A DNA stretch of 64,000 bases from Streptomyces asoensis. Lineage in GTDB: Bacteria; Actinomycetota; Actinomycetes; Streptomycetales; Streptomycetaceae. The translations under genes and the position numbers were made by a program. The first letter of the stretch is position 1. Every line of letters starts with the position of its first letter. Location: NCBI RefSeq assembly GCF_016860545.1, contig NZ_BNEB01000003.1:2046001-2110000 (forward strand). Reading direction: 5' to 3'. The notes under the pieces are model-generated. The model ran no database searches. It saw only the letters and a list, made by a program, of their open reading frames with translations, and had not been told where the DNA came from. This document shows positions 48,026 through 50,781 of the stretch, piece by piece.

Positions 48026-49795
48026 TCAGGCTCGGGTGCGGTGTCTGCGGGCCGCGAAGATCTTCCAGGTCGCGAAGAGCAGCGGGAGTTCCAGGATCCA
48101 GACGCCCGTCACCGCGTCCCACTCCGGAGCGGCGGCGGATGCCTCGTCGGCGGTGATGACCGCGCACAGCAGGCCCCACACCGCGGCGAGCAGGCCCACC
48201 AGCCACAGGGCGGTGGTCCAGGCCCACAGGGAGCCGCCGCTGCGCGAGGACCGCGCTGCGGGGTCCCGTCTGCGCGGCTGCGGGACGCGCTCGGGGTCGC
48301 GGGCCGGCATCGGCACCACGGCCTGTGGCGGCACGGCCGCGTCCACCGCCGCGATCCGCTCCGGCGTCACCCCCCGGTACAGGGTGGGTTCCACGGTGAC
48401 CGAGAAGCCGTCGTGGCCGGTCAGGACGCGGGCGCCGTCGGGACGGGTGGTCATCGCCGAGCAGGCGTCGTAGCGGACGGTGACCGGGCCCCTCGGCGTC
48501 AGCAGGCTCACCCCCTCCGCGCCGATGACCAGCGTGACCTCGTCGTCCTCCAGCGACTGGTGACGGGTGCCGGTGACGGCGGACTCCGAGTACTGCGGGG
48601 CGAGGGTGAGCCCCGCCCAGTCGACGTCACGGCCCGGCACCTGGAGGAGCGCTCCGGCCCACGCCTCCCGAGCCACCTCGCGCAGGTCGTCCGTCGTCAC
48701 CGCGTTCAGCTCGTCCCGGTGCTGCTCGGGGGTGAGGATCCGGTGCCCGAGGAGCAGGCTCAGCGCGTACGAGGGCAGTGCGGCGGCGGCGAGATCGGGG
48801 GAGTCGTACATCTTGAGGAGCTTGCTGCGGACGGCGTCCAGCTCGGACTGCTCGATCCGGCCCGCCCGCAGCCGGGCGAGGGTGTCGACGAAGCCGCCGA
48901 CGACCGCGTCCTGCTTCTGCGGGAGGGAGTCGGCGTACGCGGTGAGGGTGGCGGAGCCGGCGTCGCGCGGGCTGTAGTCGGCCTCCGCGGTGTAGGAGTA
49001 GCCGCCCTCCTGGCGCAGGTCCTGGAAGAGGGCCCGGCCGAGGACGTCCGCGAAGACACTGGCCGCGGTGGAGCGGCGCAGCACCGACGTGAGGACGACA
49101 TGGCCGTCGTCACCGCTGATGTACGCGGGCGTGACGGGCAGGGCGCTGGTCGCGGCCGGCGCGGGCAGGCGGGAGCCCTGCGGGAGGGTGAGGTCCAGGC
49201 CGTCGGGGACATGGTCGCTGGTGATCCACAGCACCGCGTTGTCCCTGGTGAAGCGGGTCTCGGCCCAGTGCCGCACCTGGTCGGGCGTCAGGCTCCAGGT
49301 GCCGAGCTCGGTGTAGCTGGACAGGCCGTAGCCGCGGGCGCCGTACCGCCACAGCGGCATCCGGTGCTGGGGGCCGGAGCCGCGGCCGGCCGCCTCGGTG
49401 CGCAGGATCTCCTTCTCCGTCTCCAGCCGCTCCATCGGCAGGTCCCGCAGACCCGCGCACACGCTGTTGAGGTACCTGACCACCTCCTCCTCGCTGCCGG
49501 TGACGTGGAAGAGGGTGTAGGCGTTCGCCGTGGCGCCGTTGTAGTGCAGGTCGGACAGGCCCAGGCGGTGCAGTGCGAGGTGTTCGACGAGGTGGGTGAC
49601 GCCCGCGGTGGCCAGGGTCTCGTCGGCGCGGCCCACCCGGAAGAAGAGACCGGCGGTGATCTCGTTGCCCGAGGCGGGCGCGTAGAGCGTGGGGACGTGG
49701 TCGGTGAGGGTGTGCGAGACGAGGCCGGAGAGGGCACCGAGTCCGTTGTCGTCGGCGCCGTCGCGGCGGTCGTGCTCGTGCAGGTCGGTGGTCAT
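48026..49795 (-). CDS. Membrane-anchored M16 (insulinase-type) metallopeptidase
   Basis: The 589-aa product has the inverted zinc motif HxxEH at residues 68-72 (HLVEH), with a likely third ligand in ETEKEILRTE near residue 127. It is therefore predicted to be active. The M16 repeats span roughly residues 30-420. A region near 440-500 (VTLVIGAEGVSLLTPRGPVT) looks like a small beta-rich domain. Two C-terminal transmembrane helices (LWAWTTALWLVGLLAAVWGL, then WILELPLLFATWKIF) anchor it. The ATG follows GAGGAGGAGG and overlaps the stop of the upstream helical-protein gene (ATGA), so both are translated together. The substrate is unknown. Confidence 0.88.
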   Translation of the reverse strand: MTTDLHEHDRRDGADDNGLGALSGLVSHTLTDHVPTLYAPASGNEITAGLFFRVGRADETLATAGVTHLVEHLALHRLGLSDLHYNGATANAYTLFHVTGSEEEVVRYLNSVCAGLRDLPMERLETEKEILRTEAAGRGSGPQHRMPLWRYGARGYGLSSYTELGTWSLTPDQVRHWAETRFTRDNAVLWITSDHVPDGLDLTLPQGSRLPAPAATSALPVTPAYISGDDGHVVLTSVLRRSTAASVFADVLGRALFQDLRQEGGYSYTAEADYSPRDAGSATLTAYADSLPQKQDAVVGGFVDTLARLRAGRIEQSELDAVRSKLLKMYDSPDLAAAALPSYALSLLLGHRILTPEQHRDELNAVTTDDLREVAREAWAGALLQVPGRDVDWAGLTLAPQYSESAVTGTRHQSLEDDEVTLVIGAEGVSLLTPRGPVTVRYDACSAMTTRPDGARVLTGHDGFSVTVEPTLYRGVTPERIAAVDAAVPPQAVVPMPARDPERVPQPRRRDPAARSSRSGGSLWAWTTALWLVGLLAAVWGLLCAVITADEASAAAPEWDAVTGVWILELPLLFATWKIFAARRHRTRA

Positions 49796-50781
49796 CGGAT
49801 GCCTCCTCCTCGGGTGTCCAGCGCGGCCTTGCGGTACCTGAGGAACGCGGCCTTCTTGTCGGGCATGCAGTCCCACGGGTCATCGGTCGCCCGGTCGCCG
49901 AGGGCGGCGAAGTGCGCGGCCGCGTCGGCGAGGTGACCGCCGAACGAGAAGGCGAACGCGAACGCGTTGTGCGCGCCGACCGAGTCCCAGTCGGGCCGGT
50001 GGGCCGGGTGCAGGACCGAGACCTGGGCGGCGTTGCGCAGGTCGTGGTGGACGGACGGGCTCCGCATGTAGGCCGCCTTGTGGCCGCCGTCCAGGTCCAG
50101 CGCGTGCTCGATGTGGACGATGGCCACCAGGGCGCCGGAGACCGAGCCGTCGGGGGCCGCGGTCGCGCACTCGCGGGCGAAGGCGTGCGCCGCTTCCCAG
50201 GAACCGCTCCACTTGGGGCACAGCTGCTGGAGCAGCTGGGTCTGGGCGCGGTAGTGGTGGGGGTGGTGCGCGCGGAGCCGGTCGTAGCGGCGGCGAGCCT
50301 CGGCCTGGCCGAGCTGGAGCCCGCGGACGGTCTTCAGCCGGGCCGTCCAGGCGGGGGCGTACGAGGGGTGCTCGGCGCACACCTCGATGAGGATCTGCTC
50401 GGCCCTGCGCAGCCAGTCGTGGAACTGGACGAACTGGTCCCGCGAGACGTGCTGGGCGCGGGCGCTGCTGCGGATGTCCCAGCCGATGTGGATGTACCGC
50501 TCGGCGAGCAGGGTGCGCGCGAGCGGGTCGGCGGGCCGTTCGGCGGCCGCCCGCTCCAGGAAGTTCTCCACGCCGGGCACGTCCGCGAGCATGCTCGAGG
50601 CCGTGGTGAGCCGGGCGGCGGAGCCGAGACCCTCGCAGTAGGCCCGGACGGCCGGCCAGTCACCGGCCCGCGCGGCCTCGCGCAGCGGGATCAGCTCGGG
50701 TGTGTTGTCGTACGGGTCGAACGTCGGCCCCCAGGTGTTCCCGGATCCGCCGCTGGTGGTGCCGTCGGTGGTGCTGGTCAT
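49792..50781 (-). CDS. Alpha-helical protein of unknown function, coupled to the M16 peptidase
   Basis: The 329-aa product has no signal peptide or membrane segment. It is rich in Ala/Leu/Arg helices that may form TPR-like repeats (PLREAARAGDWPAVRAYCEG, then AERYIHIGWDIRSSARAQHV). No family was recognised with certainty. The ATG follows GGGGCGGAGGA. Its stop overlaps the start of the membrane M16 peptidase, so the two products probably act together, for instance as adaptor and protease. It diverges from acpS across a spacer with 13-bp direct repeats. Confidence 0.8.
   Translation of the reverse strand: MTSTTDGTTSGGSGNTWGPTFDPYDNTPELIPLREAARAGDWPAVRAYCEGLGSAARLTTASSMLADVPGVENFLERAAAERPADPLARTLLAERYIHIGWDIRSSARAQHVSRDQFVQFHDWLRRAEQILIEVCAEHPSYAPAWTARLKTVRGLQLGQAEARRRYDRLRAHHPHHYRAQTQLLQQLCPKWSGSWEAAHAFARECATAAPDGSVSGALVAIVHIEHALDLDGGHKAAYMRSPSVHHDLRNAAQVSVLHPAHRPDWDSVGAHNAFAFAFSFGGHLADAAAHFAALGDRATDDPWDCMPDKKAAFLRYRKAALDTRGGGIR

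Follow-up and report, generated by a model that had tools for sequence, protein, structure and literature searches.

M16B metallopeptidases are widely distributed in bacteria, and their function is called unclear in the part of PMC8960859 that deals with them. In the homodimeric M16B enzyme of Bacillus halodurans, both halves of the active site are carried by one chain, as described in the relevant passage of PMC12731061. BepA of Escherichia coli is an M48 protease whose protease domain is cupped by a TPR domain of the same chain, according to the corresponding passage of PMC7950410. In this study, we analyzed a 64,000-nucleotide stretch of DNA (G000:C3:2046001-2110000; the window) from a Streptomyces-like genome, the genus of which was inferred from close named relatives. 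Two adjacent genes of the window encode P0001, a predicted membrane-bound M16 peptidase, and P0002, a helical protein designated HEL. The two genes form a real, conserved, and apparently functional unit. We propose, and give the proposal an even chance, that the pair is a two-part proteolytic unit at the cytosolic face of the membrane, in which HEL would serve the quality control of proteins or peptides as the peptidase's own adaptor or gate.

Both genes lie on the minus strand, with glmS flanking one side and acpS the other. The features of the pair are as follows.

49792 to 50781, minus strand: P0002 (HEL), 329 amino acids, a predicted TPR-type helical solenoid and proposed adaptor or gate.
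48026 to 49795 (stop codon included), minus strand: P0001, 589 amino acids, a predicted M16B-fold peptidase with a PH-like domain and a C-terminal membrane hairpin.
49792 to 49795, minus strand: ATGA, in which the stop of HEL overlaps the start of the peptidase, with the Shine-Dalgarno-like GAGGAGGAGG upstream.
48605 to 49729, minus strand: M16 N and C domains, residues 23-397, from VIA-align matches to 7v4y_A and 3hdi_A.
49580 to 49594, minus strand: HLVEH, residues 68-72, the predicted two zinc ligands and general base.
49394 to 49396, minus strand: Glu134, candidate third zinc ligand, 62 residues past His72, aligned with the distal Glu region of 4nnz.
48992 to 49015, minus strand: Arg261 to Tyr268, the putative R/Y pair for substrate binding, carried by the chain that also has HxxEH, from conservation and spacing.
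48335 to 48568, minus strand: PH-like domain (residues 410-487) of seven strands that ends in a helix, from the model and the alignment.
48140 to 48232, minus strand: first membrane helix, residues 522-552, from the model, hydropathy, and charges.
48032 to 48121, minus strand: second membrane helix (residues 559-588), with a basic tail behind it, from the model, hydropathy, and charges.

An earlier note, made on this DNA from its letters, had described the ATGA overlap, an HxxEH motif, a small beta-rich region, two terminal membrane helices, a soluble, helical, and perhaps TPR-like partner, and a position between glmS and acpS. All of these were recovered, the beta-rich region and the membrane helices in the predicted structure of P0001 and the TPR likeness in that of HEL.

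Of 246 Streptomyces genomes, 42 had a match to P0001. Across the phylum, one was present in 39 of 396 genomes, and nearly all of the non-Streptomyces matches were weak. An M16 profile search at an E-value of 1e-20 recovered 3 of 119 genomes; two come from the same genus, and the third (G108) is from another class. At least 50% identity to P0001 was found in 38 of the 42 genomes; the weak or fragmentary matches of G539, G436, G428, and G477 were left out of this count. HEL was adjacent to the M16 gene in 35 of the 38, as judged from match coordinates, with gaps of at most 168 bases between alignment edges. Among the copies that lack HEL, M16 was split over two frames in G440 and had lost its first 117 residues, hence the zinc motif, in G568. 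M16 also occupied two frames in G407, which bears HEL. A broken M16 was thus present in two of the three genomes without HEL and in one of the 35 with it (Fisher p = 0.013), a comparison to which draft assemblies may add errors. M16 distances and HEL distances were correlated over 31 loci (r = 0.93), and none of 2000 permutations gave a value as high.

The ratio of nonsynonymous to synonymous substitution rates (dN/dS), estimated with a simple count method, was below 1 in 10 of 10 comparisons for both HEL and M16. The medians over 10 close loci were 0.49 for HEL and 0.35 for M16; those of the neighbors were 0.08 for glmS, coaA, acpS, and glmM, 0.17 for nnrD, and 0.37 for an ldt-like gene. By these sequence comparisons, HEL and M16 are judged to be functional but fast-evolving. 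Because both genes are under selection (dN/dS < 1) and are adjacent in 35 of 38 genomes, the existence of the pair is not chance.

The predicted structure places P0001 among the M16B peptidases. The AlphaFold2 model (predicted local distance difference test score, pLDDT, 87.5; predicted template modeling score, pTM, 0.79; 35 aligned sequences) contains the two-domain M16B fold. Its residues 23-397 were matched by VIA-align to 7v4y_A (Z 32.4, root-mean-square deviation [rmsd] 3.0, 360 residues) and to 3hdi_A (Z 32.4, rmsd 2.8, 364 residues). The earlier note had suggested a hidden Markov model search with Peptidase_M16 and TPR families. In a Pfam scan, PF05193 was above its cut-off in P0001, and PF00675 (Peptidase_M16) scored 18.5 against 22.3 bits, the N domain being compact; the TPR models TPR_19 and TPR_14 stayed below their cut-offs in HEL. 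The M16 membership of P0001 rests on fold and residues despite the sub-threshold PF00675 score, which reflects a library threshold and no biological feature.

The active site of P0001 is predicted to be complete, with HLVEH, the distal Glu134, and R261/Y268. In an alignment of close full-length relatives, HLVEH was kept in 32 of 32 rows, and so was Glu134, which is preceded by Glu127 seven residues earlier. Two glutamates are also seven residues apart in pitrilysin. R261 and Y268 were nearly invariant among the relatives, and their spacing of 7 is that of R298/Y305 in PttP1, as given in the pertinent section of PMC8960859. A single P0001 chain carries both active-site halves, HxxEH-Glu and R/Y. 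Judged from these residues, P0001 is apparently an active zinc protease. The earlier note had named two findings that would count against its proposal, a pair that is not conserved and a peptidase without its third zinc ligand; the pair was adjacent in 35 of the 38 genomes with a close M16 relative, and the candidate Glu134 was present in every aligned close relative, so both fail.

Three distant members (L086, L107, and L108) stand outside the 32-row alignment. HxxEH was lost at the aligned place in L107 (4443-5936) and L108 (5637-7109), which have M16 and the PH-like domain and lack the hairpin and HEL. L108 lies beside genes that, from a reading of their sequences, we take to resemble a siderophore N-hydroxylase and a decarboxylase. 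L086 (8190-9689), from another class, has M16 and the PH-like domain with an intact HLVEH, no hairpin, and no HEL, and adjoins a six-helix DUF6498 protein. In the genome of the window itself, three further M16 genes (L001, L002, and L003) pass the Pfam cut-off; two of them are mutually adjacent, and none is a close paralog of P0001.

The C-terminal part of P0001 is predicted to attach it to the membrane. In the model, seven strands (residues 410-468) precede a helix that ends at residue 487, an order of elements that fits a PH fold; bPH_6 was matched in just one of 29 members, weakly (E 0.011). The full-length fold search hardly probed the PH-like part and the hairpin. The model and hydropathy place two transmembrane helices after this domain, and such a terminal hairpin was present in 30 of 35 aligned members, the others being L086, L089, L093, L107, and L108. 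In a scripted scan, two hydrophobic stretches were assigned to each of 32 rows; these include L089 and L093, in which the stretches lie inside the PH-like domain and form no true hairpin. Over the 32 rows, the charge averaged +1.8 ahead of the first stretch, -2.4 in the loop, and +4.7 past the second stretch, and basic flanks with a loop charge of zero or less were found in 31 of the 32. No N-terminal signal was seen in P0001. Because of the flank and loop charges and the lack of such a signal, the catalytic part is predicted to be cytosolic, with both termini inside the cell.

The model of HEL is an all-helical solenoid (pLDDT 93.4). Among solved folds, TPR proteins come nearest to it (best Z 14.8, rmsd 4.7, 217 residues), a match only modestly above the chance level for helical repeats. 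The stacked helix pairs resemble those of solved TPR proteins, and helical repeats score high generally. P0002 was under every Pfam and NCBIfam cut-off, such as 19.7 against 25 for TPR_19 and 15.6 against 23.5 for TPR_14. Among 63 aligned HEL relatives, DUF4034 and TPR models matched few and weakly; L124, a longer relative, passed the PF13226 cut-off (25.1 against 21.3 bits). From these profile scores, HEL appears to be a family with no curated Pfam or NCBIfam model.

The junction of HEL and P0001 reads CCGATGACC, in which ATG and TGA have bases in common within ATGA. The start codon of P0001 is the ATG at 49795, and GAGGAGGAGG lies six bases 5' of it. Translational coupling of the two genes is plausible from this arrangement, yet the peptidase gene has its own ribosome-binding-like site. 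The overlap is a trait of only part of the family. When the first start candidate was compared with the HEL stop in 26 pairs, some overlapped by 4 bases (ATGA or GTGA), and the others were 4 to 56 bases downstream.

The pair occupies several chromosomal sites. Most close-relative loci, as well as L087-L089, have it between glmS and acpS. In L090-L092, it is found between coaA and glmS, and it also occurs in at least two other neighborhoods that are unrelated to these. In L084, L094-L097, L104, and L106, it is near genes that, as read from their sequences, resemble guaB1 and the gene of a sugar-nucleotide dehydrogenase. In L099-L103 and L105, it is near what are presumably a SurA-like lipoprotein gene and a MazG-like gene. 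The flanks vary by site; HEL and M16 alone stay together, and no third gene travels along. In an acpS survey, 61 of 61 genomes matched, and the best 30 loci were read. glmS and acpS were at most 150 bases apart, an empty arrangement, in 14 of the 30; the pair was present in 4, an interval of 0.6-1.4 kb was present in 6, and glmS was out of reach in 6. A link of the pair to glmS or acpS was rejected, since many species carry the pair at another place, and glmS and acpS are immediate neighbors in others. Its occurrence at several unrelated sites makes glmS and acpS incidental to the pair, which is an accessory unit, repeatedly moved or lost, with neighbors that are uninformative on its task. Some frames were misnamed by the gene caller (e.g., L012, L022, L092, L109, L110, L118, and L121), so that tblastn was used to check the key placements.

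Accessory genes seem to accumulate between glmS and acpS. Extra small genes of about 62, 133, and 270 amino acids lie between HEL and acpS in L018-L020 and L089, and they may be akin to regulator/DUF397 units. SCO4742 of S. coelicolor, guessed from gene numbers to be HEL, was rejected; its published primers for quantitative polymerase chain reaction match the nnrD neighbor (3 and 0 mismatches in L014) and not HEL.

HEL relatives are more widespread than the pair. With P0002 as the query, they were found in 198 of 246 Streptomyces genomes; with a HEL profile, relatives turned up in 8 of 8 same-genus genomes and, among 198 genomes of the phylum, in one from another family. A membrane M48 peptidase (PF01435, E 8e-16; HExxH) lies beside HEL-family genes, often with one HEL on each side (between two HEL genes in L127, L128, L129, L131, L132, L134, L137, L139, L140, and L143). 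The M48 protein matched in 52 of 246 genomes. Among the best 30 of those loci, 22 had both HEL types, 7 had one type, and 1, which lies near a contig start, had none, so that 29 of 30 had at least one HEL neighbor; L238, one of the 22, has both HELs on the same side. Other HEL genes are followed by genes for an Hsp90-like ATPase (about 620 amino acids) and a TPR protein (about 1000 amino acids) in L111-L114, L116, L117, L119, L120, L168, and L170. HEL directly precedes a LON_substr_bdg gene and then a tRNA-editing-domain gene in L123, L176-L178, and L180-L182. It is next to an amino-acid permease gene in L122, L174, L179, L183-L186, and L188-L190.

In a tree of 83 HEL sequences, in which some long branches are unsure, the M16-linked (29), Lon-linked (7), and permease-linked (8) HELs each formed one group with support of at least 100/99. 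The M48-linked HELs needed four changes and the Hsp90-linked HELs two, and the M16 and Hsp90 groups were neighbors. The HEL regions of this partner survey were chosen from matches; a less biased set is given by the HEL matches in the 9 genomes of the profile search. In that set, M48 adjacency occurred in one genome (G128). The HEL-M48 pairing is accessory, because most lone M48-type HELs in the 9 genomes have no adjoining M48.

HEL relatives sit beside another membrane protease and chaperone-like genes, which suggests that HEL is a family of little-known partner proteins for proteases. A broader reading is tentative and, in our judgment, somewhat more doubtful than not: HEL would comprise Streptomyces-expanded TPR-type adaptors for M16, M48, an Hsp90-like ATPase, a Lon substrate-binding-domain protein, and permeases, one branch each, with the window pair as one module. 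Text searches of open-licence PMC text found no description of the HEL family or of such a quality-control layer.

For the pair itself, we propose the following course of events. HEL and P0001 would be co-transcribed from one message. P0001 would form the M16B clam-shell, most likely as a homodimer, since the HxxEH-Glu zinc site and the R/Y pair are found together in a single chain, and would bind zinc and be active. The C-terminal hairpin would anchor it with both termini inside, and the PH-like domain would lie beside the bilayer. Two unrelated membrane metallopeptidases are paired with one TPR-type family, which argues that HEL does something for the peptidase. On the parallel of BepA, HEL is proposed to dock on the tethered M16 chamber via its TPR-type groove, where it may deliver substrates or gate the chamber in the cytosol near the membrane. 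The substrates may be peptides and small proteins, unfolded or released from the membrane, whose genes lie in other parts of the genome.

Several observations weigh against this proposal. G475 has an intact full-length M16 frame and no HEL. L089 and L093 adjoin HEL yet carry no membrane hairpin, and L086, from another class, has neither HEL nor hairpin. The co-inheritance signal may be explicable by linkage alone, as the distance test cannot separate co-evolution from linkage. The PH-like label is drawn from the model and one weak match, and a profile search of solved structures with the PH-like domain gave nothing useful. The permease-linked branch indicates that HEL is not limited to proteolysis, and the family may be a more general scaffold. 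The interaction of HEL with P0001, the activity, and the substrate stay at the level of prediction.

Other explanations of the pair were considered. In a signaling switch, HEL would sense a ligand or partner and open the peptidase to cut one membrane-linked substrate, such as an anti-sigma-like protein. The membrane tether, the dedicated partner, and the divergent upstream region that the two-gene unit has of its own next to acpS would fit this explanation; however, no regulator or substrate gene is conserved beside the pair across sites, and M16 chambers suit short peptides and not folded proteins according to the account of the peptidasome class in PMC12731061. We hold such a switch to be improbable. 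The patchy distribution of the pair among the 246 Streptomyces genomes, its presence as a unit at several sites, and its fast evolution relative to glmS, coaA, acpS, and glmM would instead fit a defense or conflict module, in which the TPR-like protein would detect a phage or a rival element and then set the membrane peptidase to work. However, no PADLOC model matched P0001 or P0002 at E-values up to 1, and HEL relatives are present in all eight same-genus genomes of the profile search, several of them beside housekeeping-type partners, so that a defense role appears unlikely.

The earlier note had suggested that the pair may form a membrane-bound processing system, possibly for precursor or peptide maturation. 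The membrane-bound M16 peptidase with a TPR-like partner, as a conserved pair, stands. The maturation role was not supported, as no precursor, modifying, or transport gene accompanies the pair across its chromosomal sites and the partner family points to proteases and chaperones generally. A maturation protease for a ribosomal peptide or other precursor is quite unlikely in our estimate, even though the absence of a nearby precursor gene is not decisive, since unclustered M16B peptidases are proven lanthipeptide proteases in the cases described in PMC8960859. The lanthipeptide enzymes treated there are heterodimers with HxxEH and R/Y on separate subunits, whereas P0001 has both and its partner is not an M16 protein, and no biosynthetic gene travels with the pair. 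Finally, that two unrelated genes remain neighbors by chance at several sites is very improbable: linkage can preserve gene order and G475 keeps M16 alone, but the pair is intact at several unrelated sites, the M16-linked HELs are one clade, and HEL loss goes with M16 decay.

As P0001 has an anchor, a PH-like domain, and a dedicated partner, substrate capture by a trap mutant could directly assign it a role. If an Hsp90-like protein and two membrane metallopeptidases that are unrelated to each other share the HEL proteins as adaptors, a layer of protein quality control of this kind exists in Streptomyces. This wider adaptor pattern, which we infer, is of more interest than the window pair.

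Compared with the known M16B metallopeptidases (BH2405/BHP, Sph2681/2682, and TTHA1264/1265), P0001 shares the predicted two-domain fold, HxxEH, the distal Glu, and the R/Y pair. It differs in the added PH-like domain and membrane hairpin and in a dedicated, non-M16 partner. The His72-Glu134 spacing is 62 in P0001 and 72-83 in the M16B rows taken from PMC12731061. For HEL, DUF4034 (PF13226) and the TPR families are the nearest named relatives; some HEL relatives match PF13226 and the TPR models are weak, and P0002 reaches no cut-off. PttP1/PttP2 and Bcn-gP1/gP2 are lanthipeptide M16B peptidases that are often encoded away from their substrates, according to the section of PMC8960859 on these enzymes. 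They are heterodimers of two M16 chains, whereas P0001 combines both motifs in one M16 chain that also has a PH-like domain and a hairpin, and its partner is of the TPR type. The likeness to BepA lies in a TPR-type solenoid that, in the proposal for HEL, would partner a zinc peptidase in envelope quality control, and an M48 peptidase also occurs between HEL relatives. BepA belongs to another clan and is a single chain in the periplasm, whereas the pair described here consists of two proteins, has an M16 peptidase, and is predicted to face the cytosol.

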